This document shows positions 13,424-39,042 of a DNA stretch of 50,132 nucleotides, in pieces. The DNA is taken from NCBI GenBank assembly GCA_025210555.1, contig JAOARL010000003.1, positions 1 to 50,132 of the forward strand. The letters run 5' to 3'. Position 1 is the first letter of the stretch. Each line of letters starts with the position of its first letter. The notes under the pieces were generated by a model that was not told the DNA's origin, made no database searches, and worked only from the letters and a program-made list of their open reading frames with translations. A program made the position numbers and the translations under genes. The stretch is from Clostridia bacterium (GTDB lineage Bacteria; Bacillota; Clostridia; Lachnospirales; JAOARL01).

Positions 13424-14293
13424 TTAATATTTATATTCTTTAAGTGTAAACCCTACTACGTTATAGTTTTTAAAATCATATCTATCATTTTGTAAGAATA
13501 TGTTCTTATCTTCTTTATATACTACAAAAAATGTTATTCCTTCAAGCGGATTAAAGTTATCCTGCGAGAAGTTATTAACCCTATTAGATTCTGAAGCTCT
13601 ATTACTTGCAAATTCTATTGCAAGACCATTTGTATATGCTGGTTTTGCTATAATTGCATTTATTCTATTTGTTATATAATAACCTTTTAATCTATGAAGT
13701 TCTTCTTCAAATCTTTCTTTATTCTCATAACTGTCATCCGATTCATCATAATATCTATCAATCTCTTCCGTACCATCATGTGGATTATTAAAAACAGTAT
13801 ACAAAGAAACTCTTGTATCAGTATCTGCTTCTATTCCCTCATCATATAATGTATTTAAATAATACACTTTATTTGTATGTCTGTTTGTATAACTATAAAA
13901 ATATGGGGCTGACCACTTATCATTAACCCCTGCAACAAAAAACTTTTCATAATCTGCAACCACTTTTACAGTTAAGTTTTGTGTTATTTTACTTTTATAT
14001 TTAACAGCATCTCCATAATTTTTAGCCATCATTATATGAAAATCATCCATTAACTTTTCTTTATTTATATCTATTTTAGGCACTCTTTTTTCTGAAAAAA
14101 ACGTATATCCTTGTGCAATCTCTTCAAAGTTAGCATGTGTTTCATTTATGTTATTTATCAAAACCTTAGAAGATAAATTTAGAGAATGCTTTAATATTTG
14201 TTTTTCATAATTTGTTCCTTCAAAGTATGCCATAACCGTAAATACTAAAATTGACATAAATACAAGTATTATGGTTGTATATGTTTGCTCCAT
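13424..14293 (-). CDS. TadE/TadF-like membrane protein (minor pilin candidate)
   Basis: The 289 residues have one N-terminal membrane helix (about residues 5-24, TIILVFMSILVFTVMAYF) followed by a mainly extracellular domain rich in Tyr and Asn. That layout and the position just after the other pilin-like genes of a Tad block resemble TadE/TadF minor pilins, which are small assembly factors of Flp pili; this protein is longer than usual. GGGAGG lies seven bases before the ATG. It is spaced 15 bases from the preceding gene and 11 bases from the SLH gene that follows. Sequence similarity is too weak for a firm assignment. Confidence 0.55.
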   Translation of the reverse strand: MEQTYTTIILVFMSILVFTVMAYFEGTNYEKQILKHSLNLSSKVLINNINETHANFEEIAQGYTFFSEKRVPKIDINKEKLMDDFHIMMAKNYGDAVKYKSKITQNLTVKVVADYEKFFVAGVNDKWSAPYFYSYTNRHTNKVYYLNTLYDEGIEADTDTRVSLYTVFNNPHDGTEEIDRYYDESDDSYENKERFEEELHRLKGYYITNRINAIIAKPAYTNGLAIEFASNRASESNRVNNFSQDNFNPLEGITFFVVYKEDKNIFLQNDRYDFKNYNVVGFTLKEYKY

Positions 14294-14308
14294 ATAGCAT
14301 CCTCCCTT

Positions 14309-15259
14309 CTAACTTCCTGCATAAGTATATTTAATATATGTATATGATGGATATCTATTACTTCCATCAACACCTTCTAAATCCACCACTACTTCTTTTT
14401 CAAATTTCCCTGAAACCGGAATATAAAATGATTCTGCTGGATCTGTAGCAAATGAATAACTTGAGCCAGTTCTTGCATTACCAGCTGGTATAGTTAAAAA
14501 ATTAGCCTTCACGGTTGTACTTAAATTTACGTTCAATGAATCAACATTTACATTGTGCATATAAAAACGCTTCTCTGAATTTGCTCCAGCAGCATTTTTA
14601 TTAGCTCTAGTTTCAACTTCTATAATTACATCATCCCCACTAGCTAAGTAATCATCTATATCAAACTTAACATCATATCCTGTATCTATATTGTGTGGAT
14701 TGTTACTTATTGGAACTGATTTAATCGCTTGTATCTTTTTATCAATAAAAGTATCTGGCGCAGCTCCTAAAAGAGATGCATTTATAAGTCTTCCAAACAT
14801 TGTTAAGTCTGTTCCTTCAACGAGAATAGTTACTCTATCTCCAATTTTAAACTTATTGTTTGCAACTTTTACTGTATTAAACTTATAATTTCTTCCACTT
14901 ACAACATCAATTTCTTTTGCATGTGATTTAGCTGTAGCCTCATCTGGCGTATCCATATCAAAATATGCCAAGAACAATTCATAATTATCATCAAAGTAAG
15001 GCTCATAATGACCATTACCTATGTATTCTTCATACTTTATTTTAATATCAAAATTTCCATATCTTTTTAATTGCTGGCTTAAGTATCTATATGAATTCGC
15101 TGAGAATTCAGCACTTGTTGATATATTATCTGTAACCTCATATAATAACTGCTCTACATTTTCCTGCATACCTTGATGCACATAGTAAAATGCAATAAAA
15201 AGTATTATATACGTTATAAAAAATATATTAAATATTGTTATCATAACACGACCTGTCAT
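14309..15259 (-). CDS. TadE/TadG-like membrane protein (minor pilin candidate)
   Basis: The 316 residues start MTGRVMITIFNIFFITYIIL, a single N-terminal membrane helix with a short basic tail, then an extracellular domain with beta-rich ends (VDLEGVDGSNRYPSYTYIKY). The arrangement matches proteins encoded beside Tad pilins that are thought to act at the pilus base or tip. GAGGTG lies five bases before the ATG. It is the first gene after the terminator at 15281-15316, so it depends on read-through or an unseen promoter. I cannot assign a specific family by eye. Confidence 0.5.
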   Translation of the reverse strand: MTGRVMITIFNIFFITYIILFIAFYYVHQGMQENVEQLLYEVTDNISTSAEFSANSYRYLSQQLKRYGNFDIKIKYEEYIGNGHYEPYFDDNYELFLAYFDMDTPDEATAKSHAKEIDVVSGRNYKFNTVKVANNKFKIGDRVTILVEGTDLTMFGRLINASLLGAAPDTFIDKKIQAIKSVPISNNPHNIDTGYDVKFDIDDYLASGDDVIIEVETRANKNAAGANSEKRFYMHNVNVDSLNVNLSTTVKANFLTIPAGNARTGSSYSFATDPAESFYIPVSGKFEKEVVVDLEGVDGSNRYPSYTYIKYTYAGS

Positions 15260-15280
15260 TTTATCACCTCTCTAATTTAT

Positions 15281-15316
15281 AAAAACCTCTACAATATTAA
15301 ATTAATTGTAGAGGTT
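15281..15316 (-). terminator. terminator after the pilin-like pair
   Basis: On the minus strand AACCTCTACAAT (15305-15316) pairs perfectly over 12 bases with ATTGTAGAGGTT (15284-15295), followed by TTTTTAT. It follows the stop at 15332 and would cap transcripts that begin at the promoter at 16203-16232, leaving some read-through to the downstream genes. Confidence 0.85.
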
Positions 15317-15331
15317 ATCTCGCTTTATTTA

Positions 15332-15742
15332 TTACATTTCAGTTAATACTATTTTTTCCATTTCACCATCTGGATTTACAGTGTTTTTTCTTTTAAAATA
15401 TCTTTGATTTAAATCATTATTATCAATTGTATCTCTAACTGTCTCTAAATTTGTTTCATCTGTTACATAAGCATCTCCAACTTTTCTGTTTATGCTTATT
15501 TCTATATCATTTGTTCCATCCCCTGGATTTGTATCTTTTATTTCCTCATCTGCTATAGTATAAGTTAAATCTATAATACCATCACCAGATATTCCACCTT
15601 TTGATGCATTTGTAATATTGTTAATTTGATCATTATTAGCCTCTCCAGCTTGTAATGCCTTTTCATTATTTGGTAAGATTACCCCTACAAATAGTCCCAT
15701 AACTACTCCTAACATAATTACGGTTGCCATGATTTTTTCCAT
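15332..15742 (-). CDS. short pilin-like protein, second of a pair
   Basis: The 136-residue product has an N-terminal hydrophobic helix (IMATVIMLGVVMGLFVGVIL) and a hydrophilic C-terminal domain (KALQAGEANNDQINNITNAS onward). The class III signal expected of Flp or type IV prepilins (Gly or Ala followed by a hydrophobic run with Glu at +5) is not evident. It is paired with the equally long neighbour at 15755-16165, twelve bases away, and the two lie between their own promoter and a strong terminator, as expected of abundant subunits. AGGAGG lies eight bases before the ATG. A major or minor pilin role is inferred from size, topology and context. Confidence 0.55.
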   Translation of the reverse strand: MEKIMATVIMLGVVMGLFVGVILPNNEKALQAGEANNDQINNITNASKGGISGDGIIDLTYTIADEEIKDTNPGDGTNDIEISINRKVGDAYVTDETNLETVRDTIDNNDLNQRYFKRKNTVNPDGEMEKIVLTEM

Positions 15743-15754
15743 TATTTTTTCCTC

Positions 15755-16165
15755 CTAATTAATTGGTATAAATATATATCTTTCAACATCACCGTCAGCA
15801 TCTTCCTGTCTAGACTGAGTAAAAGTCTTATCTAGAAAGTCATAATCATCATAGTCATCTAAAACGTCTCCTATTCTACCCGAATCAGCTGCATAACTAT
15901 ATACGCTTCCGTCAATTTCAATTTCTACTTTAGACATATGTCCTTCTAACATATACTTAAGAATTCCTCTTATATCAGATCCTTTTACTTCTGCATCAAC
16001 ATCCTCAACATCAACCAACGAATTTGTTTTTACTTTTCCTGTATCAACAATCGTTTCTGATGCACCTCTGATGAATCCCATACTATCTCTAAATAATGCT
16101 ATTGCCATTAATAGAAGACCTAATATTACAGCTCCAATTAAAACCTCAAAAACTATCTCTTTCAC
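15755..16165 (-). CDS. short pilin-like protein, first of a pair
   Basis: This 136-residue protein starts with GTG and has GGAGG seven bases upstream. Residues about 5-25 (VFEVLIGAVILGLLLMAIAL) form a membrane helix; the remainder is acidic and soluble, with SYAADSGRIGDVLDDYDDYD near the middle of the C-terminal domain. It shares length, topology and the C-terminal sense of the partner at 15332-15742 (both end in an Arg/Asp/Glu-rich segment followed by a short beta strand), which suggests an old duplication. No prepilin peptidase site is obvious. It is the first gene of the unit driven from 16203-16232. Confidence 0.55.
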   Translation of the reverse strand: MKEIVFEVLIGAVILGLLLMAIALFRDSMGFIRGASETIVDTGKVKTNSLVDVEDVDAEVKGSDIRGILKYMLEGHMSKVEIEIDGSVYSYAADSGRIGDVLDDYDDYDFLDKTFTQSRQEDADGDVERYIFIPIN

Positions 16166-16202
16166 TTCCAGACCTCCTCACTTAAGGTTTGTTTTCTCCT
16201 TA

Positions 16203-16232: not shown

Positions 16233-16236
16233 TAGG

Positions 16237-17385
16237 CTACATATTAAAATCACTAAAATTATAAGCTGATAGCCATGGTTGTAACATATATCCTATTATA
16301 AGAAGTATTAAAACTATAAATCCAACTACTCCCCACATGTTTATCATTTCAACTTGTTTCTTTATTTTTCTAGTTTCAACACGTTTTTCAAGTTCAAACT
16401 CATTTTTTATATTTAAAATAGCTTGATCAAAATCGTAGTTATTTGCTTCGTCTAACTTTTCATAGAAAAGTTTAATATTTATATCTTTTGCTCTTGATAT
16501 ATAACCTTTATAGATACTAGTATTATCTATATAATTTCTTTTATTTAAATCTTCTATATCTTTAAGCATATTTTTATGATACTTTGATTTTTCAATTAAA
16601 TCCTTTAAAAGATCCATAAAGTCTACCGGCTTTATACTTCCATTCATTATTATGAGTCTTTTTAAGAATCTAAGCTCTCTTCTAGCATCAACACCTGCAA
16701 AGAAATTATAAAGAGCTACATATATTTCTGGTATAAAGTATACAAAAGCCAAAATTAATAGCTGAACCGTTCTATTTATTTCAAAGGTACTATTATAAGC
16801 TTCTATTCTATAATATATTCTATTAGCTAATTCCTCTACTGTTACGTTATGTTTTTCTTCATACTTATCTCTAATATCATAATATATTCTTTTCTCTGCT
16901 CTTTGTTTCGGCATTGTTTTAAGTTTTTCAGCTTCTCCTTCTTCAATGTAAGCTCTCAAAAAACCTTGTTCTTCTATATATATTTCATGCGCTTGTTCAG
17001 GTGTAAGTCCTTTTTCTCTAACGCTATATATAGCATCTACTTCAAACGCTACATGATTATATATTTTATTTAAACTATCTGCTATATTTGTTTGCTGTAT
17101 CCCTATTAATAAAACAACAACAAACATTGCCAGGTAAAACTTAATTCTAAAAAACTTTTCAACATCTGTATTACCTAAATATCTTAAGAATACTTGGTAC
17201 TTATGATGAATACTCCAATCTTTAGAAGGCACAAATATATTTGCAATTCTCATTATAGTTGCTTGAATAAAATTAGTTTTAAAATCTAATTGTTTTATAG
17301 ATTTTACTTTAAGATGATTTTTTCTTTCAAACATATATCCAACAACTATTACAATTGCTACTATTAATATTAATAAATATCCCAT
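16237..17385 (-). CDS. tadC: TadC-like pilus assembly platform protein
   Basis: TadB and TadC are paired inner-membrane proteins of the T2SF/GspF fold that transmit the motion of the TadA ATPase to the pilin. This 382-residue protein has membrane helices at the extreme N terminus, near residue 90, near residue 215 and near the C terminus (GVVGFIVLILLIIGYML), with a charged helical cytoplasmic domain between (KRLIIMNGSIKPVDFMDLLK). It is slightly longer than usual. It follows the TadB-like gene by 12 bases with AGGAGG before the ATG. The family call rests on topology, order after tadA and tadB, and general pattern; it could equally be called a second TadB. Confidence 0.65.
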   Translation of the reverse strand: MGYLLILIVAIVIVVGYMFERKNHLKVKSIKQLDFKTNFIQATIMRIANIFVPSKDWSIHHKYQVFLRYLGNTDVEKFFRIKFYLAMFVVVLLIGIQQTNIADSLNKIYNHVAFEVDAIYSVREKGLTPEQAHEIYIEEQGFLRAYIEEGEAEKLKTMPKQRAEKRIYYDIRDKYEEKHNVTVEELANRIYYRIEAYNSTFEINRTVQLLILAFVYFIPEIYVALYNFFAGVDARRELRFLKRLIIMNGSIKPVDFMDLLKDLIEKSKYHKNMLKDIEDLNKRNYIDNTSIYKGYISRAKDINIKLFYEKLDEANNYDFDQAILNIKNEFELEKRVETRKIKKQVEMINMWGVVGFIVLILLIIGYMLQPWLSAYNFSDFNM

Positions 17386-17397
17386 TTCTTACACCTC

Positions 17398-18411
17398 CTA
17401 AGCCTTTCTCTCTAAGAATAACATTGATCCAACATACATTATCATAGCTATTATTATTGCTATTTTATATTGTATAGCCCCTGTTGTTGAATAGAATTTA
17501 ATCGCTTCTTCACCTAATGCATGTTCATTAAAAATTTCTATTCCTCTTATACTAAATGGTATAAGCAATGATAACAATATATATGATCTTGTTGCTGCCG
17601 TTAAGTCTTTTTGATTTTCTATAGATACTAATATATCTTCTGTTGCTGACTCAAATTGATGTTTTATAGTCTCGCTTCCACCTTTGAAGTGAGCTTGCTT
17701 TATTAGATTTAAAAGCAATGTTAAATATTCATTTTTATATGTCTTTTCTATATCATCAAAAACCCTATCTATTTCTGACATATCATTTTTCTTAAGCACA
17801 TCGTATATTTTTCTCATTTCTCTTTTTATAGACTTATCAAAATCTCCCATTGATATATTAATAGCCTTTAATATATTTCCAGTATTTATATATCTACTGT
17901 TAAGTATTTTAAAAGTATCTGGAAGTTGTCTTGTAAAATGAGATATCGCCATTAATGAGAATACATACATTATTAGTACTAAGAATCCAAATGCTAACCC
18001 TATTGTGAATAATGCTACATACCAAACAGTTATCTTAGAAGGCATAAATAACATTAACATTATAAGAGCAAACACAAATGTTCCAAGCCCTAACATTGTT
18101 GCATATTCCATATTTTTCTCTTTCGAGTACTGAGTATACATACCTATTTTTACAGCTAGATTTGATAATATTTTTTCCATAAATTTAATCTTTTTCAAAT
18201 CTCTTGTTAAATATGTAAAGAATCCCTTTTTATTCTTTTTAATCAAGTACTCTCTCTTCTTTTGGTTATACTTTATTTGAGCTTTAATATAAGTCCAAAC
18301 ATATATAGCCGCAACAAAGAGTAATACTATATAAAAGAAATTAGTACTCAAAAACGATGATAGGTTTGTTAAATTAGAAATAACACCTACCCCTTGAGCT
18401 GATCCACCCAT
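17398..18411 (-). CDS. tadB: TadB-like pilus assembly platform protein
   Basis: The roughly 337-residue integral membrane protein has an N-terminal helix (FFYIVLLFVAAIYVW), a pair of helices near residues 105-165, and C-terminal helices (KIAIIIAMIMYVGSMLFLE). The cytoplasmic T2SF-type domain includes LLLNLIKQAHFKGGSETIKH, typical of TadB proteins. It sits directly after the TadA ATPase gene and before tadC, the standard Tad order. The ATG at 18411 is preferred to a GTG at 18420, because that GTG is part of the AGGTGAG ribosome binding site. Role: platform for pilin insertion driven by TadA. Confidence 0.75.
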   Translation of the reverse strand: MGGSAQGVGVISNLTNLSSFLSTNFFYIVLLFVAAIYVWTYIKAQIKYNQKKREYLIKKNKKGFFTYLTRDLKKIKFMEKILSNLAVKIGMYTQYSKEKNMEYATMLGLGTFVFALIMLMLFMPSKITVWYVALFTIGLAFGFLVLIMYVFSLMAISHFTRQLPDTFKILNSRYINTGNILKAINISMGDFDKSIKREMRKIYDVLKKNDMSEIDRVFDDIEKTYKNEYLTLLLNLIKQAHFKGGSETIKHQFESATEDILVSIENQKDLTAATRSYILLSLLIPFSIRGIEIFNEHALGEEAIKFYSTTGAIQYKIAIIIAMIMYVGSMLFLERKA

Positions 18412-18420
18412 TCTTCTCAC

Positions 18421-20097
18421 CTACTTTATTTTTGATTGTTCAAGTTTAAATTTTTCTTTAAAGTTATTTATTGTTTCTTTTGAAACATATTTTGATACTT
18501 TGCTAAAATACGCATCTGTTGGTAAGTTAACAGGTATCCAAACATTTTTGTCTCTATCAAATCTTACAATTTCATTATATACATAATACTTACTATATAA
18601 GTATTTTGATATTGCCATTTGTGTCATATTCATTAGATTGTCAATTTTATCTTTTAATGTTCCATTCAATACTGGATCCATCTTATGATCTTGAGGAATA
18701 TATACAACTTCTACTATATTTTCAACTATTATTCTACCGTTATCAAGCTTAGCTAAGTGAACTACTAAATCTACCCCTCTAGCAATATCCGCTTCTGCTA
18801 TATCACTATCGTTATACATATCCGTTCTCATCATAAGGTTACGTAAGTTAACAACCGTTTCAAATGGTGAAAGTGAATGCAGTGTTGCCCCTACCCCAGA
18901 GTTAAGACGTAAGCTGGCATTTACTAGTTCAGCTACCTCATCTGGTTGAGTTATCTCCCCTACATATAATACATCTCTCGCCATCTTAAGCATTATTGCA
19001 AATGAGTTTTTAAGGTTTACCTGCTCATTTTCTATAATAGTTAAAACATTTTTCCAAGGATATTTCTTTTTAGCTTGAAGCTCATCCTGTTTATCCAGAA
19101 CTCCAATCCCCCAAATATTGGGAACTTTTTCCATCATAGCTAGCATGAATGTAGACTTACCAACACCCATGTCAGATCCTGTAACGAAGTGAGATCCTCT
19201 TCCTGTTTGATTTATCATAATCATGTCATACATTAAATCATTTATTGTGTTGTATCTATCTCTCATCTCTTCTAAATTAATTTTATCTAAGTTGAATATA
19301 CGTTCATTGTAATACAAAGATCCTGAATCTGGAGTCGACTTAAATCCAGCAACCGTAATACGGCTTGAGTTAAGTTTTGATGTAACAAGAACCGGAGTCT
19401 GCTCATCATAGTTGTCTGCAGATTTTTGAGTTGTCTTCTTTTGTATATTCATTATTATACTTTCATTTCTGAAATGTAAAAACTTAAGATGTATTTTTCT
19501 ACCTCTAAAAACAATATAAATATAGTCTTTATCAATTATACCAATCTCATTTATATCATGATATTGAAGTGTATCTATACAATCTTGTCCATATTCTTTT
19601 GAATATATCATAGAAGCGATTAATTTAACTTTTGTTGAAAGTTCTTTAAAATGTTCTTTTATTGCAACTTCTTCTTTTATTACTACATCTAAAAGCATTT
19701 CATCATCAATACACGGAAACTCAACTTGCTTCTCCATATTTTCATTAGTATAAAAATGATTAACTAAAACTTGCTTTAAATCATAAACATCTAAAAGCAT
19801 TTCGAACAACACTTCTATACTATTATTTTTTATTGTATGGAAATCAACATAATTTGTAATATTATTATCTGTCAAATTATACTTTTGCATTAAAAGTCTT
19901 GAATATTGATTAACTAAATAAGCTTTTGCTGATCTATCTCCTAAAGATGCTTTATCTTTAAGCTCAGTGTAAAGTCTTATATCATTTTCAGCTTCTTCTC
20001 TTTTAATTTTAAATATCTCCATGTACTGATCTGGATCACCCAGAATAGCATCTAATTCTTTTGCCATACTGACAAAAGATACTGAATCTAGTAACAT
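18421..20097 (-). CDS. tadA: TadA-type secretion ATPase (VirB11/PulE superfamily)
   Basis: This is the hexameric motor that powers Flp/Tad pilus assembly from the cytoplasm. The 558 residues show Walker A as GSDMGVGKST (Lys314), an Asp-box-like region with VGEITQPDEV (Glu381), and the His box GATLHS (His407), all in the correct order. The N-terminal half (about 250 residues) is the variable helical domain. GAGGTG lies upstream of the ATG. It precedes tadB and tadC and follows a ParA-like gene by 16 bases. All catalytic residues I can recognise are present, so it should be active. VirB11 of type IV secretion belongs to the same superfamily, but the neighbours favour TadA. Confidence 0.88.
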   Translation of the reverse strand: MLLDSVSFVSMAKELDAILGDPDQYMEIFKIKREEAENDIRLYTELKDKASLGDRSAKAYLVNQYSRLLMQKYNLTDNNITNYVDFHTIKNNSIEVLFEMLLDVYDLKQVLVNHFYTNENMEKQVEFPCIDDEMLLDVVIKEEVAIKEHFKELSTKVKLIASMIYSKEYGQDCIDTLQYHDINEIGIIDKDYIYIVFRGRKIHLKFLHFRNESIIMNIQKKTTQKSADNYDEQTPVLVTSKLNSSRITVAGFKSTPDSGSLYYNERIFNLDKINLEEMRDRYNTINDLMYDMIMINQTGRGSHFVTGSDMGVGKSTFMLAMMEKVPNIWGIGVLDKQDELQAKKKYPWKNVLTIIENEQVNLKNSFAIMLKMARDVLYVGEITQPDEVAELVNASLRLNSGVGATLHSLSPFETVVNLRNLMMRTDMYNDSDIAEADIARGVDLVVHLAKLDNGRIIVENIVEVVYIPQDHKMDPVLNGTLKDKIDNLMNMTQMAISKYLYSKYYVYNEIVRFDRDKNVWIPVNLPTDAYFSKVSKYVSKETINNFKEKFKLEQSKIK

Positions 20098-20113
20098 TTA
20101 ATCACCTCTAAAT

Positions 20114-20977
20114 TTATCTCATAAAATATCTTCTTATAAGCTTAAGCTTATACTTTTTAAACATCTCAACCCATCTCTTGGCTGCACTTTTTTTTCTTTT
20201 TAATACCTTCTCTTTTAATACATAATTTGTATGTTTTCTAAATATGTACTCTACTATTTTTTCCATTTGGAATGTATAAGCTACATCTTCTATTCTTGTA
20301 CCTAATACAAAATTAAGTATTGACCCATAATTACACTCATTTATAAGGTCTAAGTTAAAGTCTAAGGTAAACACAGGCGAATCAAAGCCCATGTCCCTTA
20401 TCTCTTTCTTTATTTGTGTAACTTGATATTCAAGTTTTGCATAATCATATTTTTCAAAATATCTATTAACTACGAAAATTACTCTTTCTTTATGCTTTTT
20501 ATATCCTTCTATTTCGTCTATAAGCTTAACTACGCTCTTTATTGGATTAAGTACAACTATTATTGCATTTGATTTTTCAAAAAACATTTCTGAAGTTCTA
20601 TTATCTCCACTTATAGTATCTATTATTGCAAATTTATAAATTTCATTTGCATATTCCATAAGTGCCTTTATATTATCTTCTGTTACTTCAAAAAATCTAT
20701 GCGCCGCCATAATATCAATATTAAATTTAAGTTTCTTTACACAAGTTTCAAACGAATCTCTAGATAACAAACCTGAATTATGCAAGTTTATAAAATCGTC
20801 TAACCCTTTTGTAAAGTGAGCATCACTTAAGTAGTTTTCTATGTCTTTACAATATTTATTTATATCTACGAATATTATTTGTTCATTTTTTAAAATTTTT
20901 GTTATCATTGCCCCTATATTTATGGCAGTCACCGTTTGACCTAATCCTTTTCTTGGAGCCGTTACCGAAATAAGCAA
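20114..20977 (-). CDS. ParA/MinD-like protein with altered P-loop
   Basis: The fold is that of deviant-Walker ATPases (ParA, MinD, TadZ). The protein is 287 residues. The P-loop reads APRKGLGQTV, keeping the signature lysine (Lys10) but with Gln14 where the phosphate-binding lysine is expected, so ATP hydrolysis is doubtful. Further family traits are IIFVDINKY, KFAIIDTISGD and a late VVLNP. The basic C-terminal tail (KRKKSAAKRW...KLIRRYF) could bind membrane or DNA. The start is TTG with AGAGGTG six bases before it; a stop lies just upstream. It is located between the CpaB-like gene and tadA. A structural polar-localisation role, like that of TadZ, is inferred. Confidence 0.65.
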   Translation of the reverse strand: MLISVTAPRKGLGQTVTAINIGAMITKILKNEQIIFVDINKYCKDIENYLSDAHFTKGLDDFINLHNSGLLSRDSFETCVKKLKFNIDIMAAHRFFEVTEDNIKALMEYANEIYKFAIIDTISGDNRTSEMFFEKSNAIIVVLNPIKSVVKLIDEIEGYKKHKERVIFVVNRYFEKYDYAKLEYQVTQIKKEIRDMGFDSPVFTLDFNLDLINECNYGSILNFVLGTRIEDVAYTFQMEKIVEYIFRKHTNYVLKEKVLKRKKSAAKRWVEMFKKYKLKLIRRYFMR

Positions 20978-20996: not shown

Positions 20997-22001
20997 TTAA
21001 TTGTTAAGTGGAAAGTTTCCATTTGGCATAGTTGTAGCTGGCTTTGCAGCTGCATCTGCTGCTGCTTGAGCATCTAAAGCCTTTTTTACAGCACTTGATA
21101 AATCTATATCTTTTTGGCTATACCACTTTATAAACATCTTATCTGAATATTTCATTCTCTTGAATGAAGCTATTTGACTGTCTATTGTTCCACTTGAAGT
21201 TCTTTCAATACTATCCATAATTGCTAAAACTAAGTTCTTTGCTTGCTCATAACTAAATGTTACTCTTGCAGCTGGTTGTTCAGAGTTATTATACTTTCTA
21301 AGTTCTAACTTTCCTAAACCTTCTGCCATATTTAAATCTCTATATTCTTTTTCATTTACTGATAGAATTATTATTGCCGGATCATTAGTACCACTTTCAT
21401 CTGGAGCAATTAATTTTTCTACTCTTTTCTTAGCTGCAACAACTTCATAAGCACCATTTTCAAGGTTTACTAAAACGTCTACTTCTTGTCCTTCTTCAAG
21501 AGTTCCTGCTAAGAAGTTTGACACTTCATAATCTTTAAGTTTTTCATCGTTAGTTGCCCAAGATTTTCCTGAATTATCAATACTGCTTCTTAATATTTGT
21601 TCTTTTGCACTTAATGTTTCAGTTGTAAATTTCCCTTTAAGTCTAGCATTTTCAATTAATTCTTGCTTAACTCTACTTCTAGTACTCTTTTTACCTACAT
21701 CATCATTTAAAAAATATCCTGTATCTAATGTCGCTGTTATAGCTCCTTTTACTAAGAAACCTTCTACGTCATCTTTTGGAACTAACATTACATCAATTGA
21801 ATTGTTTATAATATCCTCTGTAATTCTTGTGCTTTGCTCAATTTCATTTGTTGCTGTTAATACCCATACAGCATCTTCCTTAAATGTCTTTTCCATTTCT
21901 ATTCTTACTTGTGGAATTCTTACCTCATTATAATAGAAGAATATTCCCGTTATTAGAACTAGAAAGAATGCAATAATTAAGTACGATCTTTGTTTTTTCA
22001 T
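20997..22001 (-). CDS. CpaB/RcpC-like SAF-domain pilus assembly protein
   Basis: The protein has about 334 residues, one N-terminal membrane helix (RSYLIIAFFLVLITGIFFYY) and an extracytoplasmic SAF-like part (ITEDIINNSIDVMLVPKDDV), followed by a beta-rich domain and an Ala/Pro-rich tail. CpaB/RcpC proteins act in the envelope at the pilus channel; in Gram-positive cells there is no secretin partner, so this one probably works at the membrane-wall interface. The ATG at 22001 has GGAG eight bases before it; a GTG at 22010 lies too close to the same site. It sits between two ParA-like genes in the Tad block. Confidence 0.65.
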   Translation of the reverse strand: MKKQRSYLIIAFFLVLITGIFFYYNEVRIPQVRIEMEKTFKEDAVWVLTATNEIEQSTRITEDIINNSIDVMLVPKDDVEGFLVKGAITATLDTGYFLNDDVGKKSTRSRVKQELIENARLKGKFTTETLSAKEQILRSSIDNSGKSWATNDEKLKDYEVSNFLAGTLEEGQEVDVLVNLENGAYEVVAAKKRVEKLIAPDESGTNDPAIIILSVNEKEYRDLNMAEGLGKLELRKYNNSEQPAARVTFSYEQAKNLVLAIMDSIERTSSGTIDSQIASFKRMKYSDKMFIKWYSQKDIDLSSAVKKALDAQAAADAAAKPATTMPNGNFPLNN

Positions 22002-22039
22002 ATTTACCACTCCTTATGTTTTTTTGACATTAATTTTTG

Positions 22040-26332: not shown

Positions 26333-26860
26333 TTATTCTACTATTTTTATTATCTTTCCATTTTTATCTAAAATAAATGTGAAAATATTTTCTTCGACAC
26401 TTTCTTCTTCTACTGCTGCCACATCTTTAATATCATCATTTTCAAATTCTTCAAACATCACTTTTACTTCATATGTTCCATCTTTTTTTAATACATTATC
26501 AATAACAGAAACCGTATCTTCATTTATAAAATCAAACCTATCGAATATTTCATCTGCAGTATTATTTGAAGTGTCAAATAATTCTAAAACTGCTGCGTCT
26601 TTATTCGAAACAAACAATATAAAATTATTTACTGTTACTTGCATAAGAATGTAGTTTTCTAAATTATCTCCTTGATGTTTTTCAACCTCACTAACATAAT
26701 TTTCTTTTATATTTTCAATTATCTCATTTTCAACTCTTCTACTTCTAAACTTCCCAAATATTACTAACAATAGTACAAGTACAGCTACGGTTATTCCCAT
26801 TATTAATTTCAAGTTTTTTCTTATAGCTATTTTGAAACTCATTTTTTTAAAACTATTCAT
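26333..26860 (-). CDS. small single-pass membrane protein, VirB8-like position
   Basis: I do not recognise the family. The 175 residues start with a basic tail, then a membrane helix (LIMGITVAVLVLLLVIFG, about residues 19-37), then a soluble extracellular domain of about 135 residues ending in beta-like FTFILDKNGKIIKIVE. Topology, size and placement after a VirB6-like gene resemble VirB8/TcpC-type T4SS proteins (short cytoplasmic tail, one helix, NTF2-like domain), but this is only structural analogy. Its ATG overlaps the end of the NlpC-fusion gene by eight bases, so the two are coupled. Confidence 0.5.
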   Translation of the reverse strand: MNSFKKMSFKIAIRKNLKLIMGITVAVLVLLLVIFGKFRSRRVENEIIENIKENYVSEVEKHQGDNLENYILMQVTVNNFILFVSNKDAAVLELFDTSNNTADEIFDRFDFINEDTVSVIDNVLKKDGTYEVKVMFEEFENDDIKDVAAVEEESVEENIFTFILDKNGKIIKIVE

Positions 26861-31879: not shown

Positions 31880-31881
31880 CT

Positions 31882-34800
31882 TTATGATTTATATCCATAA
31901 TTATTTGATTTTTTAAATTCACCTCTTCCGCCTATATATTGACCTTCACTTGAAGGATCTGTATATTTGCTATCTTTACCTTTTGTAAGGATTACTGAAT
32001 TATCGCTAACCATAACTTCTTTAACGTACTTTCCGCCTCCAAAACTTTTACTGTTAGCTAATGTAGTAGCAAATTTAGATACTTGTTCTGGCTTTAATCC
32101 TTCATCAATTGATTTTTGAATTGAGTCAACCAAAACTCCTCTTATATCTTTTTCACTTGCTACCCCATTCATATTCCAAGGCATTTTACCCTTTGCCTTA
32201 CTCCAAGATTTCGCATCTCCTGTATGATGAGTAACACCTGCATCTATAGCTTTATCAACTGTACCTGCTATATCACTCGCTATCCCTTGAAGTTGTTTTG
32301 TAACTCCAGCTCCTTCGAATCCCATAGTTCCCCAACTAGCTGTACCAATCATGGCTTCTTTTATACTATCTTTTATAGCATTTTTATTAGCTAAATTATC
32401 TTCTTCTAACTTCTTAATATCATCTGCAGCTTTTTTATTAATGTCTGCTTGAGCCATCTTACTCATAACTGCATTTGAAACAGCATCAGCGAATCTATCC
32501 ATATCTTGACTATCTAGACCTGATCCATTTCCGCCTCCAAATGGATTTCCACCTCCACTATTTCCATCATTTCCAGCATCTCCTGTTGGATCTGGTTGAT
32601 ACCCTGAACCTTTTTTAAACTCAGTTGGCTTATTAACTCCAGCTTGCTTAAACATTTTAAGGCCTGCTCCAGCTGCTTTAGCCGTAACTCCTGTAACGTT
32701 TTTAACTACTCCAAGAGTATTTCCAACTTGTCCCATAACTCCACTAGCAACTTTCTCTTCATCGATACCCATTTTACTAGCAAAGAATGTTTGAAGTGAG
32801 TTCTTAAGCATTTTAGCTACTTGCATAGCCATCATCATCCATACTAAGAAATACAACCAACTTTGATCTGTTGAAACTAATAAATATGCCATAACATAGA
32901 ATGTTAATGCATAGAAAAATTGAGTTGATAAGTTTGAGAAAATTTCTCCAAACCATATTTTAATAGTATTTCCTGGTGCTCTCATTCCCCACATAAATAT
33001 TGCAAGTGGTGATATAACAAATAATATTGTTAACATTATTTTTCTTACTAAGAATATAAAGTATATATTAAGTTCTATCCCCACAAAGAACAATCTAAAA
33101 ATTGCATCACCCAAAGGATTGTTTGTGTTAATTATATCCATATAATCAATATTCATACTAGATACTGGTAAAACTAGAACCAATTCATTAAATACTATTA
33201 TAAGCATTTTAAATATCCAAGGGAATATTGGCATAATAAATACACTCATTATCCATTTAAAGAAATCACCCTTAAGAACTGATCTTTTATCAACTGATTG
33301 ACTAAATATAATATATTCAAATCCTGTTTTAGCAACCATTAAAAACACTAGTGGTATAGCTATTGATGCTATTGTAGCATATATTTTCAGTAGCACATTC
33401 CATTCCTTTGGTGAGAATGGTTCAAGTGCACTTAAATTCGCATCACCTTCTACATCATTTAAGAATAGCACTGTATTTATGTCGGATTTTTCTCCAAATA
33501 TCATATCTTTTATACTTCTACCTAAATCTATAATACTATCCATAACTCCTACCATACCTTTGATAGCAAGTCCAGCGATTCCACCAACATCTTCTTTTAC
33601 TTCTCCGTCTAATTTAACACTATTAGTTTCTTCTACAACATATTCTTCCATTTCATATTTTTCTTCAAATGTTTCGAACATGTTATTTGCAGTATTTATA
33701 ACAAATGATGATATAAATAACAAGTTTCCTAATATAAATCCTCCTATTGCTATATATACTAAGCTGTACATAGCTTGAGCTCTCTCTACTGGTGCAGCTT
33801 TAGTTACTATCATTTGAATACCTACAGCCATTATTGCTGCAAAGGTTATAAACGCACCTAAATTTCTAATTATTTCCATTATAGTTCCCAAAAATACATT
33901 TAACGCTTTTTCATTAGGACCATCGCCTAAAACTGCTGAAATAGTATTTCCTTCAATAATATCAACTAAATCATTTTTATTGAACCACAATACAACCAAG
34001 TCGTAAGTTGAATTAGATACTGTTGACATTTCAATCTTACTTGTATTATTTGCACTAGTATCATAAGTCCCTTCGTAATCACTAAATAAAACTCTTATCT
34101 TATACATATTACTTGATTTTCCCAAACTTTCAGGTTCTAAAGTAATCCTTTCGTTGTCCGCTACAAAATCAATTACTCCATTTCCTACATCGCTAGCCAC
34201 AATCGTAAACCTTACAGGTAACTTCTTAGTTTTGATTGTAGTAGCAGCACTTGCTCTATCTTGACCATACCCATCTATAAAAAATTTATTTGTTTGCTCT
34301 ATCGGATCTAAAATAAATTCAACTTGACTAAGCTTCATATGGTCAGATCCAACCATAACATTATTTCCACCTAGCGCAATTTTAACTTTACCATCATATA
34401 AATAATCAATATTTATTGCTGGATTCACTTCTATTCTATTACCTTCAGCATCATATACTCTAACAAATTCCCACATGTACTCATTGTTTTTCTTATTTAA
34501 ACCATCTGAGATATTTATTATATATTCTGAGTAAAGTGTATCTTTTAAATAACCTTCCCCTTTATACTTTGCTATAATAGCATATCTACTTTCATGCTTT
34601 ATTTTGTCATATGCATCAGGAGTTTTATCAAAATCCACAACTTTATAAACAACTCCCGATGTTCCATTTTTCATTTTTTTATAAAAACTACTTACAGAAG
34701 TTCTATAAACATAATCATCATTTATTTTTATGATAATCTCTCCATTATCTTTTTCTATATCAGCCTTTACTCCATTCAAGCTAGATGGTGCATCTATTAG

Positions 34801-35283
34801 TTCACCGTTATCCAGGTTTACTTCAAAGGAATCACCTAGAGTTTTAGCTTTATAATAATAAACTTTTAAAACTCTTCTTTTTTCACTTAAAATAACACTT
34901 CTAGCCGTTACATATGCATCATAAAATTTAACACCGTAATTTTTATTAACAACTGTAATTTTAAGACCATTTACAGTGACATTCGCAGTCGCTATACATT
35001 CATCAAACTTTTTATCTGGTTCCCCTAAGTTTTTTAACTCAACAACATTTTTATTTTCACCTATTAATTTACCCATATCAAATTTTGCTAAAGCTCTATA
35101 CTTATCATCACCTATATAAAAATCAAATTCATAATTAATTATTTCACCATCTGTTTCATCACCATACGTTTTATATTCATCAGCTTTTTCCCCTGTCATT
35201 GTTCCAACAGCTTCATAAGCAAATGTCCAGTTAAATGTCATAAAGAACATTAATGAAATAATTAACAGCATTTTCTTCATCAT
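31882..35283 (-). CDS. giant VirB2/VirB6-like polytopic membrane protein
   Basis: The protein has about 1133 residues. A signal peptide (MLLIISLMFFMTFNWTFA) leads into an external region of about 450 residues. Then come a VirB2/TrbC-like helix pair (VERAQAMYSLVYIAIGG, about 470-530) and a VirB6-like region of several helices (about 630-830, including MVAKTGFEYIIFSQSVDK). The C-terminal tail, probably cytoplasmic, has a Gly/Asn-rich stretch (NSGGGNPFGGGNGSGL). It is a clear paralogue of the protein encoded at 26853-31775, without the NlpC/P60 domain. VirB6 forms the inner-membrane channel of type IV secretion. The ATG at 35283 has GAGGTGAG before it; an earlier ATG at 35301 lacks one. Confidence 0.78.
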   Translation of the reverse strand: MMKKMLLIISLMFFMTFNWTFAYEAVGTMTGEKADEYKTYGDETDGEIINYEFDFYIGDDKYRALAKFDMGKLIGENKNVVELKNLGEPDKKFDECIATANVTVNGLKITVVNKNYGVKFYDAYVTARSVILSEKRRVLKVYYYKAKTLGDSFEVNLDNGELIDAPSSLNGVKADIEKDNGEIIIKINDDYVYRTSVSSFYKKMKNGTSGVVYKVVDFDKTPDAYDKIKHESRYAIIAKYKGEGYLKDTLYSEYIINISDGLNKKNNEYMWEFVRVYDAEGNRIEVNPAINIDYLYDGKVKIALGGNNVMVGSDHMKLSQVEFILDPIEQTNKFFIDGYGQDRASAATTIKTKKLPVRFTIVASDVGNGVIDFVADNERITLEPESLGKSSNMYKIRVLFSDYEGTYDTSANNTSKIEMSTVSNSTYDLVVLWFNKNDLVDIIEGNTISAVLGDGPNEKALNVFLGTIMEIIRNLGAFITFAAIMAVGIQMIVTKAAPVERAQAMYSLVYIAIGGFILGNLLFISSFVINTANNMFETFEEKYEMEEYVVEETNSVKLDGEVKEDVGGIAGLAIKGMVGVMDSIIDLGRSIKDMIFGEKSDINTVLFLNDVEGDANLSALEPFSPKEWNVLLKIYATIASIAIPLVFLMVAKTGFEYIIFSQSVDKRSVLKGDFFKWIMSVFIMPIFPWIFKMLIIVFNELVLVLPVSSMNIDYMDIINTNNPLGDAIFRLFFVGIELNIYFIFLVRKIMLTILFVISPLAIFMWGMRAPGNTIKIWFGEIFSNLSTQFFYALTFYVMAYLLVSTDQSWLYFLVWMMMAMQVAKMLKNSLQTFFASKMGIDEEKVASGVMGQVGNTLGVVKNVTGVTAKAAGAGLKMFKQAGVNKPTEFKKGSGYQPDPTGDAGNDGNSGGGNPFGGGNGSGLDSQDMDRFADAVSNAVMSKMAQADINKKAADDIKKLEEDNLANKNAIKDSIKEAMIGTASWGTMGFEGAGVTKQLQGIASDIAGTVDKAIDAGVTHHTGDAKSWSKAKGKMPWNMNGVASEKDIRGVLVDSIQKSIDEGLKPEQVSKFATTLANSKSFGGGKYVKEVMVSDNSVILTKGKDSKYTDPSSEGQYIGGRGEFKKSNNYGYKS

Positions 35284-35304
35284 TTTCTCACCTCTATCCA
35301 TAAA

Positions 35305-37128
35305 CTAAGTTTTTATGTATCCCCATTCAAAGTTGAATGCATTCATCTTAAGCACTACTTGATCTTGTTCTGTTAAAAGCATTCCTGTACCTGCTGTAAA
35401 ACTTCCTAAGAAATCCGCAGATTTATCTGACAGATCAAAGAAATCTGCTACAACTTTAGCAACACTTGGATCCTGCTTCATTATAAGCTTAGTAGCACAC
35501 TGGTGAATAACAGCTTTACCAGAGTCACTTCCTAAAAACTCATTTATCATTTGAGATGCTATAACTAATGATATTTTGTACTTTCTACCACGTCTAGCGA
35601 TTTCTTCAAGGAAGGCTGCTGATCTTTCATATTTAGCAAATAACCATCCCTCATCAACTATAACTCTCTTTTTAATATCTTTATATTTCCAATTTGAGAA
35701 TTTACCCCAAATCCATGAAAGTATATTAACCATTGCATAGAACTTCATGAAATCGTCCCCAATGTGTTTAAAACTTATACCAATTATTCTTTTATTTAAA
35801 TCTACTTTTGTTTGCCCATCAAACATTGCAAGCGATCCATCTCCTGTAATAATTTTTATAGTTTGAGCTAAATCTTGCGTATATGGGTTTTTAGCTAATT
35901 CTTCTCTAAGTTCTGATAAAGTTGGCATTTCTTTTTTCACTTTACCCATGAAGAATTTACCATCTACTTCTTCAGATTTTGCTTCATATAAACTATCTCC
36001 ATCTTTAGTTATTCCACGCTTTGTATACATTTCTTTCATTATTTCTTCTACCGATGTTATTTCTTCTCCTTTAAGAGGCATTTGTCTATACTTCTCACAG
36101 AATAAAGAAATCATCTCTCTTATTTCAGAAATTTTAGCGTATATATCCAGTTGTCCATCACTCTCTACTTCAAGTTCAAATGGATTTATACCAATATTGC
36201 TACCTGCTTTAATTTCTATATACTGACCACCTAAATGATCTACTATATCTTTATACTCTTGCTCAGGGTCAAGTATTATTACCCACTCTCCTGACGCTGC
36301 ACCTCTAGATGCAACAAGTTTCATTGTAACAGACTTTCCAGCCCCTGCCATACCGAATATACCCATCATTGGGTTTGTTACTTCTGGCGGTCCTATAAAA
36401 TTATCAAAAAATATAGGAGAGTTTGTAAATACATTATTTCCTAAATATATCCCTGATTTATGTGACATCTCTGTATTACCTGTTGGCACAAAAGAAGCAA
36501 TTGCTCCACTTGTCATATTTCTAATACTGTCATCATGTTTTATATTTTTATATGGTAAAGAACTTATAAATGCTCCTCCTTGATCAAAAGTTAATACTCT
36601 TGGTTTAAGAGCCTTTCTAGAACATATATCTTCAAAAACTGAACATTTTTCTTTAAGTTCTTGTTCACTATCTCCCCATATTGTTATTATTACTTGAACA
36701 ACAAACATTCTATCTGTATTAGTTTGAATACTTTCACGCAAATTATCTAAATCGGCAATAGCTTTACGTAAACCATAGTTAGATGCTGAAACATTTTTTT
36801 CTTCTAATATAAGATTAGATTGTAATGCTGTCATTTTATTTGTTAAAGTTCTAATTATTTGACTGTTAGGTATATTTTCTATATACGTACTAATATCAAT
36901 ATTTCCTAACTCCGCAAAGAATTCATTTAATATCCCTACATAAACATTATGTGGATATACAGATATTGCATGCATTCTTGCATATTTATTTGGTCCTAAA
37001 TATATATAATCTTTTGTTTCTTGATAAGCATCAGGCATTATCATATCAACTAACGATAATTTTCCTTTTTCTAAAGTCTCTTCTACGTTTCTTTTTACCT
37101 CTTGTTTTTCTTTAACTTTCTTCGCCAT
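35305..37128 (-). CDS. virB4: VirB4-family type IV secretion ATPase
   Basis: VirB4 is the conserved cytoplasmic ATPase that energises type IV secretion and pilus biogenesis. The 607 residues contain Walker A GMAGAGKSVTMK (Lys265), Walker B KRVIVDEGWLF, and the downstream family block ASQMINEFLGSDSGKAV with a C-terminal arginine-finger-like region around IHQCATKLIMKQD. All look intact. The N-terminal third matches the VirB4 N domain in length but is shorter than in Gram-negative VirB4. The ATG at 37128 has GAGGGTG upstream; a longer reading from 37170 lacks a binding site. It overlaps the TraC-like gene before it and lies between it and a VirB6-like gene. Confidence 0.9.
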   Translation of the reverse strand: MAKKVKEKQEVKRNVEETLEKGKLSLVDMIMPDAYQETKDYIYLGPNKYARMHAISVYPHNVYVGILNEFFAELGNIDISTYIENIPNSQIIRTLTNKMTALQSNLILEEKNVSASNYGLRKAIADLDNLRESIQTNTDRMFVVQVIITIWGDSEQELKEKCSVFEDICSRKALKPRVLTFDQGGAFISSLPYKNIKHDDSIRNMTSGAIASFVPTGNTEMSHKSGIYLGNNVFTNSPIFFDNFIGPPEVTNPMMGIFGMAGAGKSVTMKLVASRGAASGEWVIILDPEQEYKDIVDHLGGQYIEIKAGSNIGINPFELEVESDGQLDIYAKISEIREMISLFCEKYRQMPLKGEEITSVEEIMKEMYTKRGITKDGDSLYEAKSEEVDGKFFMGKVKKEMPTLSELREELAKNPYTQDLAQTIKIITGDGSLAMFDGQTKVDLNKRIIGISFKHIGDDFMKFYAMVNILSWIWGKFSNWKYKDIKKRVIVDEGWLFAKYERSAAFLEEIARRGRKYKISLVIASQMINEFLGSDSGKAVIHQCATKLIMKQDPSVAKVVADFFDLSDKSADFLGSFTAGTGMLLTEQDQVVLKMNAFNFEWGYIKT

Positions 37129-37951
37129 CGCTAGTTTCACCCTCTTCCTCTGTTGCTTTATTAAATTCATCTAAAGAAATAACTTCTTTTTCTGGTGCTG
37201 TTACATACATAGATAATGCATCTTTACCTATTAGGTTTTCGATAGATACATTTTGACCTTTATTAAATACTGATGATAGAAGTTCTGCTATCTCAACACT
37301 GTGTAAATGTTTAATACTAACGCCGTGTGCAGTTTCTAATCCTTCAGCTATCATTCTTTTTCTTATTTCTAATTCTTTTAATGCTTTTGCATCATCATAT
37401 ATTCCATCTACCCCAAATACACAATAACTTTTTCTAACATATAATCCTGCATTGTTTTCAATTTCAGATAGTTTATCTCTAAGCATACTTGCATAATCCC
37501 TAAGTTCATGTGTTACACCAGCACTGTCATCTTCTATAAGTGCTTCAACATTTTCAACTGACTTTTTAGTACTTACTTTTACAGTTGTAGTAAAAAACTG
37601 AATTGGAAAATTTAATCCTATTGCAAATTGTATAAGCGCATTTTCAAAATGAACTTGATCCGCATCTGTTAAAAGCTCAAAGTCTGTTGTTGAAATACTA
37701 ACTACCGACCTTTTTGCATTTCTTTTAAAAAGATTTATTACACCAAGCCCGTAATGATCTTCTATACTCTTAATTTCAAACTTATCTATAATTTTACTTC
37801 TTTTATCTTTTTTAATACTTGCTTTTGCTTTCGTTGTCTGTTGCTGTGGTATAACAAGATCTGGATTCAATCCACCCTTTTTATCAAAGTGTGAATATAA
37901 TGCTATCCCTATTGCACCAAGAACTGACATTATTAGAAAAAACGCTGTCAT
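37112..37951 (-). CDS. TraC-like small T4SS protein between PrgI and VirB4
   Basis: The 279-residue protein has one N-terminal membrane helix (TAFFLIMSVLGAIGIALYS) and a soluble domain with SVVSISTTDFELLTDADQV and ALIQFAIGLNFPIQFFTT. That pattern recalls the small TraC-like proteins found next to PrgI and VirB4 in Gram-positive systems, in which a strand-rich block resembles the VirB4 N domain. It probably pairs with VirB4 at the membrane. GAGG lies before the ATG; the gene starts two bases after prgI and overlaps virB4 by 17 bases. The C-terminal tail is acidic (EEEGETSDGEES). Confidence 0.6.
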   Translation of the reverse strand: MTAFFLIMSVLGAIGIALYSHFDKKGGLNPDLVIPQQQTTKAKASIKKDKRSKIIDKFEIKSIEDHYGLGVINLFKRNAKRSVVSISTTDFELLTDADQVHFENALIQFAIGLNFPIQFFTTTVKVSTKKSVENVEALIEDDSAGVTHELRDYASMLRDKLSEIENNAGLYVRKSYCVFGVDGIYDDAKALKELEIRKRMIAEGLETAHGVSIKHLHSVEIAELLSSVFNKGQNVSIENLIGKDALSMYVTAPEKEVISLDEFNKATEEEGETSDGEES

Positions 37952-37953
37952 TT

Positions 37954-38289
37954 CTATCTACCTCTCTCATATCTAAATTTTCTTTTTCTCACTCTATATT
38001 TTAACATTTTAAAGGTATATTTGTCAGCATTTAAACCACCCATTTTTATAAAAGACATATATATTCCAATACAAGCAGCCCCCATCATAAGCAAAATCTT
38101 ACCAAATATAGCTCCTGTATCTATTTGCATTTCACCATACTCATTATATAAATAACCTCTATCTATAAAAAACTGCTGTACAAGAACAACTAATGGTAAT
38201 GCACACCATGCAAGTTGTCTAATAGATAATAAACCACCAAATATTTTATCTTCCGTTTGTAATTCAAACGGTATTTGGAACATTCTCAT
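37954..38289 (-). CDS. prgI: PrgI-family T4SS membrane protein
   Basis: PrgI-family proteins are small two-helix membrane proteins (VirB3-like) of Gram-positive conjugation systems. The 111 residues start MRMFQIPFELQTEDKIFGGL, followed by LSIRQLAW, the signature of the family, and have membrane segments at about residues 28-45 and 65-85. A basic tail (RVRKRKFRYERGR) should lie in the cytoplasm. GGGGGAG lies four bases before the first ATG. Placement directly ahead of the TraC-like gene and virB4 is the usual order. Confidence 0.85.
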   Translation of the reverse strand: MRMFQIPFELQTEDKIFGGLLSIRQLAWCALPLVVLVQQFFIDRGYLYNEYGEMQIDTGAIFGKILLMMGAACIGIYMSFIKMGGLNADKYTFKMLKYRVRKRKFRYERGR

Positions 38290-38307
38290 AACACTCCCCC
38301 TTTATAC

Positions 38308-38335
38308 AAAAAAGGGTCGGGCCAATGCCCAACCC
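38308..38335 (-). terminator. terminator between the VirB2-like gene and prgI
   Basis: On the minus strand GGGTTGGGC and GCCCGACCC form a nine-pair stem (one G-T pair) with a four-base loop, followed by TTTTTT. It lies in the 57-base gap after the VirB2-like stop (38347) and before prgI, so it should let only part of the transcripts continue. Confidence 0.9.
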
Positions 38336-38346
38336 TAATAATTAAA

Positions 38347-39042
38347 TTACATATTTAATTCTCTAACAACTTCAACTGTGTTGAATGATGTCTCGTCTTC
38401 AGTATTAGTCTTAAGTGACCATACGAAAGATGCAATAAGTGATGCAGCTCCAATAATTAAAGCTCCCACTGCTAAGAATAAAATTGAAGTCATTGACTTA
38501 GTTCTTTCTTCTGCATTGTTTTTATGTCTAATTACATCGAATCCTACCATAACTACTGCAAAGAATATAAGAACTGAACCAAAGTTACTAATAAGTGGTG
38601 AAATAACACCATACATATCATTAATAATTTCTTCTGAATCTGTATTTCTTGTTAAATCTCCAAGAATACCGTCAGCCTTTTTGTCATCATCGTCATCATC
38701 AACTGCTGGTCCAGATGTTTGTGTCCATTCATTATCTCCTACATCATAATTAAATTCATAACTATAACCGTCAAACTTAAAAGTTACTTCGTCACTATCA
38801 CTAGTAGGTTTTAACACTTTATTTCTTTCTGAGTCGCTCAAACTACTTAAATCACTATCAAATTTTATTTTACTTGAACTCATTCCTGCTTCAAATTCAT
38901 CGCTACTATCTTTCAAGTCGAAAATTGCTTTCATAAGTCCTATATCACTGTATGTCTTGTCAAGTTTAGCTGCATAAGTTGATACAGTAGCACCTATTAA
39001 TACAAGTAACGTCAAACTTAGTATTTTAAAATATTTTTTCAT
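38347..39042 (-). CDS. VirB2/TrbC-like secreted membrane protein (pilin candidate)
   Basis: The 231-residue product has a signal peptide (ILSLTLLVLIGATVSTYAA), an external region of about 130 residues with an Asp-rich patch (AVDDDDDDKKADG), and a C-terminal helix pair (about 155-212) with FGSVLIFFAVVMVGFDVI and AEERTKSMTSILFLAVGALI. This hairpin of two helices joined by a short basic/acidic turn is the VirB2/TrbC layout; the N-terminal soluble part is longer than in standard VirB2. AGGAGG lies upstream and a perfect consensus promoter drives it. The same helix pair recurs in the two VirB6-like giants. It probably forms a subunit of the channel or filament. Confidence 0.7.
   Translation of the reverse strand: MKKYFKILSLTLLVLIGATVSTYAAKLDKTYSDIGLMKAIFDLKDSSDEFEAGMSSSKIKFDSDLSSLSDSERNKVLKPTSDSDEVTFKFDGYSYEFNYDVGDNEWTQTSGPAVDDDDDDKKADGILGDLTRNTDSEEIINDMYGVISPLISNFGSVLIFFAVVMVGFDVIRHKNNAEERTKSMTSILFLAVGALIIGAASLIASFVWSLKTNTEDETSFNTVEVVRELNM

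Follow-up and report, generated by a model that had tools for sequence, protein, structure and literature searches.

Alliances between a type IV secretion system (T4SS) and a type IV pilus are known from IncI plasmids and from the Pseudomonas element PAPI-1 (PMC12857230). On IncI plasmids such as R64, one element carries a T4SS together with a type IV filament, a thin pilus that helps mating in liquid; PAPI-1 has VirB4 and VirD4, and its transfer depends on a type IV pilus (PMC12857230). On the Cutibacterium acnes plasmids p15.1.R1 and pIMPLE-HL096PA1, a Tad locus lies beside genes for VirB4-, TcpC- and FtsK-like proteins, and conjugation has been proposed (PMC5696575). In descriptions of Gram-positive T4SSs, a major pilin is absent and contact is made through surface adhesins (PMC12102498). 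A search of the open-access literature, with most subscription papers outside its scope, for a T4SS-Tad block described from the Bacillota yielded only these C. acnes plasmids. Here we analyze a stretch of 50,132 nucleotides (the window), contig C22 of a Clostridia bacterium whose genome is 1.56 Mb in size and 99.6% complete. In this stretch the genes of a VirB4-type T4SS run directly into those of a Tad-type pilus. This block is real, and it is more general than had been supposed in an earlier note made from the same DNA.

The earlier note described the region from 39042 to 13424 as tightly packed on one strand, and this is accurate: all open reading frames lie on the minus strand, with intergenic distances of -59 to +106 bp. 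Indeed, every long gene from 42928 down to 1600 has this orientation. The T4SS part comes first, from the VirB2-like protein to the second VirB6-like protein, and is followed by a divergent Tad part (Table 1).

Conservation of the block and its relatives

The search set consisted of 392 genomes of the order (Lachnospirales), which the window genome shares with Vallitalea pronyensis and in which it is the sole representative of its family among the genomes compared. A close TadA (52-64% where covered) was found in the window genome and in four others, G002, G013, G031 and G043, and these same five carry a close VirB4 (58-59%). A canonical coupling protein (55-58%) is present in the five and nowhere else at 1e-60. 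The paired genomes, of 1.4-2.0 Mb, represent three families, with three genomes in one genus, and should not be read as five independent events. The complete block of G013 starts beside rsmG-parA-parB exactly as in the window, and the gene order is identical in G043 and also in G031, where it is split over two contigs. The T4SS and Tad parts of G002, whose assembly is 69% complete, are found on separate contigs, and TadE-position genes directly precede the virB2-like-prgI-traC-virB4 genes. A check for one block conserved between proS and rsmG had been suggested; the rsmG-parA-parB border and the gene order are kept in another family, but the proS side differs, so that conservation is confined to the rsmG side.

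Between the window and G013, identity is 59% for VirB4, 58% for TadA and 55% for the coupling protein, as compared with 48% for rsmG, 49% for parB, 66% for parA and 69% for proS. Because the site is shared and the divergence falls within this housekeeping range, the module has been inherited for a long time in this lineage, and recent horizontal gain was rejected on the same two grounds. Within the window group, the trees of VirB4 and TadA are congruent.

Relatives outside the lineage are of several kinds. A TadA of the same type (44-63%), accompanied by TadB and TadC, is encoded in four metagenome-assembled genomes (MAGs) of other Clostridia. Wherever their contigs extend far enough, TadZ3, CpaB and the TadE-position genes are present as well, and none of the four yielded a close VirB4. 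The T4SS of genome G431 belongs to the same family, and the neighbourhood examined around it contains no TadA. The nearest VirB4s outside the window group (44%) belong to G176 and to the 78.6 kb V. pronyensis plasmid pVpro, and in both cases the T4SS genes pass straight into a Tad set and then a gene for a protein with S-layer homology (SLH) domains, to which pVpro adds a giant surface protein. The pairing also occurs on Clostridioides pESS17301a, Paenibacillus pSC2 and Geobacillus pGspE55-1, and on C. difficile pCd5_2 Tad genes accompany VirD4 and a conjugation gene of the pLS20 type. Among PLSDB plasmids, a VirB4 at least 64% identical to that of pSC2 occurs on seven, and a TadA at least 59% identical to that of pSC2 occurs on the same seven; the two genes lie about 10 kb apart on five of them and 33 and 96 kb apart on the other two. 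That VirB4 set comprises 40 plasmids, of which at least 21 have a TadA-like gene, a count uncorrected for phylogeny or plasmid size; on several of these the gene is far from virB4. Of the 40, 39 are typed non-mobilizable. The assumption that Tad and VirB systems are normally encoded separately is therefore not borne out in the Bacillota, where they are repeatedly encoded together on plasmids.

The trees of the two ATPases place the window group differently. In the VirB4 tree it sits with pVpro, G176 and pESS17301a, and in the TadA tree it groups with the Tad-only MAGs (100/100) and is separated from every plasmid TadA (100/100), a deep split that needs care as long branches meet there. Taken at face value, the trees suggest that two Tad lineages have served as partners of the T4SS, one having replaced the other or each having been recruited separately. 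Such pairing would favor a functional reason for the two to be together, and would also argue against strict co-evolution of one fused machine.

Components of the two parts and their surroundings

Table 1. Features of the window, with positions in the whole stretch
Feature	Position	Strand	Basis
VirD4-like coupling protein, CD1115 family	48005..49981	+	NF045973 3.3e-92; degenerate Walker A GSGTKKS
Two secreted proteins ahead of T4SS	39127..42928	-	no homologs in compared loci
Sigma-70 type promoter upstream of virB2-like gene	39092..39120	-	consensus match, perfect TTGACA-17-TATAAT
VirB2-like small membrane protein	38347..39042	-	weak T4SS_pilin match 1.1e-3
Terminator-like hairpin between virB2-like gene and prgI	38313..38336	-	consensus match
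PrgI/VirB3, beside virB4	37954..38289	-	PF12666 6.5e-12, over cut-off
TraC-like, separately encoded N-terminal part of VirB4	37112..37951	-	hhalign to pESS17301a VirB4 N-terminus
VirB4 ATPase	35305..37170	-	TraG P-loop 9.3e-16, over cut-off; Walker A GMAGAGKS intact
VirB6-like 1	31882..35301	-	7 transmembrane (TM)-like segments, T4SS_pilin-like hairpin; paralog of VirB6-like 2
VirB6-like 2, C-terminal NlpC/P60 wall hydrolase (VirB1-like role)	26853..31775	-	NLPC_P60 2.1e-12; 9 TM-like segments
Small membrane-anchored protein, VirB8 candidate	26333..26860	-	position and one TM
TadZ1: receiver-like domain, coiled coil, P-loop	24179..26257	-	CbiA 3.5e-4, Response_reg 9.5e-3
TadZ2 P-loop protein	22040..24160	-	CbiA 1.6e-6
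CpaB/RcpC	20997..22010	-	TIGR03177 6.3e-5; hhalign 97.1% vs plasmid counterpart
TadZ3	20114..20977	-	hhalign 96.0% vs plasmid TadZ
TadA/CpaF-type ATPase	18421..20097	-	CpaF structures 6.7e-10; orthologs 55-58%; Walker A GSDMGVGKST
TadB (T2SSF family)	17398..18420	-	hhalign 95.8% vs plasmid TadBs
TadC-like platform protein	16237..17385	-	four TM-like segments; weak EpsF-like domain, residues 233-349
Pilin-like protein 1, leaderless	15755..16165	-	hydrophobic segment from residue 1
Pilin-like protein 2, leaderless	15332..15742	-	hydrophobic segment from residue 3
TadE-position protein 1	14309..15259	-	N-terminal TM; G002 ortholog near virB2-like gene
TadE-position protein 2	13424..14293	-	N-terminal TM; G002 ortholog near virB2-like gene
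SLH protein, large surface protein, SLH protein	6423..13412	-	PF00395 SLH
Large surface protein	3416..6430	-	paralog of 8387-12334, 25% over 479 aa

Judged from its genes, the T4SS part is of the monoderm (MPF-FATA-like) kind, with VirB4, PrgI/VirB3, a peptidoglycan hydrolase and, encoded elsewhere in the genome, a canonical coupling protein. Homologs of the VirB2-like protein are encoded at the equivalent position in G013, G031, G002 and pVpro. The TraC-like protein aligns with the VirB4 of pESS17301a (hhalign 99.3%, 1.4e-20), and since that plasmid encodes both parts as one protein, it constitutes an N-terminal part of VirB4 with a gene of its own. VirB4 itself matches NF045971 (CD1110-type VirB4) at 6.4e-78, below the curated cut-off. 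Both VirB6-like proteins have weak T4SS_pilin matches, and neither matches the VirB6 family; they are named from position and from their 7-9 TM-like segments. Four tandem VirB6-like paralogs of 748-1580 aa follow virB4 in G002 (contig C48, 11984-28004).

The window holds two perfect promoter sites, as against about 0.17 expected from Markov-shuffled sequence. A promoter and terminator of its own, both consensus matches only, are what would be expected of the virB2-like gene if it encodes an abundant subunit. A near-perfect promoter, again a consensus match only, lies upstream of pilin 1, and no coding-strand terminator-like site was found at the T4SS/Tad border.

Two coupling proteins are encoded in the genome. 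The VirD4-like gene at 48005-49981, missed in the earlier note, stands after argS-parA-parB. Its relatives in G013 and G031 (31% identity) also have a degenerate Walker A motif, whereas those in pVpro and G176 keep GKS, and we doubt that its product is the working coupling protein. In three genomes the degenerate motif of this CD1115-family protein reads GTKKS (window), GFKKS (L077:9746-11701) and GELEKT (L078:5673-7604). The second coupling protein, which is canonical, is encoded on contig C16. In four of the five paired genomes the gene directly upstream of the canonical coupling protein encodes a conserved membrane protein of 125-135 aa that has no NCBIfam match (L073:8825-9217 and counterparts in L074, L075 and L076). 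The earlier note had seen no relaxase in the window, and PF03432 was not found in the five paired genomes, with the limits that the PF13814 search had no positive control and that other relaxase families are not excluded.

Because Pfam matches to the Tad parts are weak, these were checked by structure and profile comparison. The top solved-structure match of TadA is CpaF, far better than VirB11 (1.4e-3), and its identification as VirB11 was rejected for this reason; the score against TIGR03819 (7.2e-10) is far under the curated cut-off, and the cut-offs of other families are likewise not reached. The TadB, TadC and CpaB proteins of pVpro have T2SSF and SAF matches of their own, the T2SSF ones slightly below cut-off (for TadB, 3.3e-5, just below that of Pfam). 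By sequence, the window TadC matches neither the TadB/TadC profiles from plasmids nor any solved structure, and its predicted model resembles the EpsF cytoplasmic domain weakly (Z 5.0 over 107 residues), among unrelated helical structures. Of the gene identities first proposed, those of PrgI, VirB4, TadA, TadB, CpaB and TadZ3 stand by family, profile or structure matches, but that of TadC finds no support in sequence. The N-terminal part of TadZ1 is common to a protein encoded directly after the T4SS genes on pVpro. Directly upstream of cpaB, one of the Tad-only Clostridia MAGs encodes a fusion of a Ser/Thr protein kinase domain (PF00069, 2.6e-51) and a TadZ-like P-loop domain (L036:1655-3304).

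Neither window pilin is a Flp prepilin with a cleavable leader, and in both genes in-frame stop codons and a Shine-Dalgarno sequence directly precede the start. The five paired genomes have 17 pilin-like genes, and in every product the hydrophobic segment lies at or near the protein start; the frame of one in G031 could extend further, but related genes use the inner Met as start. Among the pilins of the Tad-only MAGs, 5/7 have a leader that ends in GG. The window genome does have a prepilin peptidase, encoded by a single PF01478 gene on contig C29, outside the block, yet the window pilins give it no leader to cut. Elsewhere in the same genome (G000), contig C16 has a second Tad-type ATPase with Tad-like neighbours (L050:11826-13373), of which G002 has a relative, and there are three further T2SSE-family ATPases, making many filament systems for 1.56 Mb.

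Tad loci (L124, L125, L133 and the window at 3416-13412) tend to end with an SLH or cell-wall-binding-repeat protein and then a large surface protein. An SLH or cell-wall-binding protein and a large surface protein also follow Tad on pVpro, on pESS17301a and in the Tad-only locus L036. Proteins of this wall- or S-layer-binding kind, together with the large surface protein, might anchor the filament in a monoderm or form its exit. The proposal that the flanking surface proteins serve both machines found no support, since SLH proteins follow Tad in a Tad-only genome as well. At the contig edge, transposase genes of IS3-like make-up (98-1266; HTH_Tnp_1 and rve) were absent from the earlier note.

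Proposed joint action of filament and channel

From gene content, joint organisation and co-occurrence we infer that filament and channel cooperate. It is reasonably probable that two machines act together at cell contact, the Tad filament attaching and the monoderm T4SS delivering. On this reading, a Tad-type filament, anchored in the S-layer and wall by the SLH and surface proteins, would attach the cell to a neighbour and perhaps shorten the contact, pulling the neighbour close. The VirB4-type T4SS, with its own wall hydrolase, would deliver a substrate loaded by the coupling protein encoded on C16. The ancestral job was likely DNA transfer, given the plasmid relatives. Because Tad and VirB genes are repeatedly paired on Bacillota plasmids, machinery for plasmid transfer is the most likely ancestor of the module, which was then fixed here. 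Instead of a mobile element, the T4SS may now deliver protein effectors or chromosomal DNA, a change proposed because the site is fixed and no PF03432 relaxase was found (other relaxases not being excluded). A fixed hybrid had earlier been preferred to a conjugative element. Chromosomal fixation, conserved order and site, and housekeeping-like divergence agree with that preference, but the pairing is wider than one lineage and probably plasmid-derived.

Several observations weigh against joint action. This Tad type exists alone, since four MAGs carry it without a close VirB4, and it can thus function by itself. The plasmid TadAs belong to another clade than that of the window, so the two parts are not one evolutionary unit throughout, and distances of 30-200 kb separate T4SS from Tad on several large plasmids. 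Some components are also weakly assigned: this applies to both VirB6-like proteins, to the VirB8 candidate (26333-26860), whose predicted model (pLDDT 48) is too poor for a structure search, and to the TadE-position proteins, which are named from position alone and gave no profile match to DUF4320 proteins. The EpsF-like fold of the TadC model is suggestive, and as an assignment it is weak. It had been argued that relatives with the two parts at unrelated loci would refute a joint system, and here the outcome is mixed: other Clostridia have Tad with no close VirB4, and the G002 parts are on different contigs, but two Tad-module genes nonetheless head the T4SS cluster of G002.

A closer union can be imagined, in which one physically chimeric machine uses the same structure as filament base and delivery channel. 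The leaderless pilins, unprocessed by the prepilin peptidase, would in this version assemble on a platform that is either docked to the VirB4/VirB6 channel or common to both. We regard such a chimera as unlikely. It is likewise doubtful that two independent machines share an operon and a regulatory signal with no mutual need, Tad adhering and the T4SS secreting. Tad-only genomes, the G431 T4SS without TadA in the neighbourhood examined, and the strong promoter-like sites that stand separately ahead of the virB2-like gene and of pilin 1 would all fit independence, but the pairing is repeated across families and on plasmids, and TadE-position genes lie within the T4SS cluster in G002.

A function in DNA uptake, with the Tad filament binding DNA and the T4SS-derived ATPases importing it, has precedents in the Flp/Tad pili that are reported to serve DNA uptake in Liberibacter (PMC8513845) and, according to work cited in PMC8370563, transformation in Micrococcus luteus. 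We consider it improbable here, as a conserved canonical coupling protein is expected of export, not uptake, and the plasmid relatives also fit export. Still less credible is a conjugative element that is mobile today or survives as a decaying remnant. The plasmid relatives, the degenerate Walker A of the coupling protein at 48005 and the transposase genes at the contig edge might be cited in its favor, but the core ATPases are intact, PF03432 relaxase was not found (other relaxase families are not excluded), and in place of a variable insertion site, one chromosomal site, identical at rsmG-parA-parB, is occupied in two families.

If Tad filament and T4SS do act together at cell contact, the recurring Bacillota pairing suggests a class of monoderm transfer systems that make contact by a type IV filament, which one lineage has kept on the chromosome in small genomes. 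This would provide a testable answer to how monoderm T4SSs find a partner. Furthermore, large plasmids typed non-mobilizable may be self-transmissible, and the leaderless pilins offer a test of the need for prepilin processing in a Tad filament.

Comparison with known systems

Plasmid pVpro has the order virB2-like, PrgI, TraC-like, VirB4, VirB6-like, wall hydrolase, TadZ, TadA, TadB, TadC, pilins, SLH protein and giant surface protein, like that of the window. It differs in being a plasmid with an integrase and a TubZ-like gene, in a TadA of another clade, in M23 replacing NlpC/P60, in a pilin with a leader and in the position of CpaB after the pilins. The C. acnes plasmids, compared with the window by description only, are actinobacterial, and no conserved chromosomal fixation has been described for them. 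A Tad-like apparatus is also used at cell contact by the Kil system of Myxococcus (PMC8460266), but this organism is diderm, the system kills prey, and no T4SS is reported as part of it. R64 and its IncI relatives are proteobacterial mobile plasmids with a Dot/Icm-type T4SS and a filament that is not Tad. In PAPI-1 only VirB4 and VirD4 are clearly recognised, whereas the window block has PrgI and VirB6-like proteins and Tad filament genes, in a monoderm and without recognised mobility. The window block is a new form of the T4SS/type IV pilus alliances exemplified by IncI and PAPI-1.

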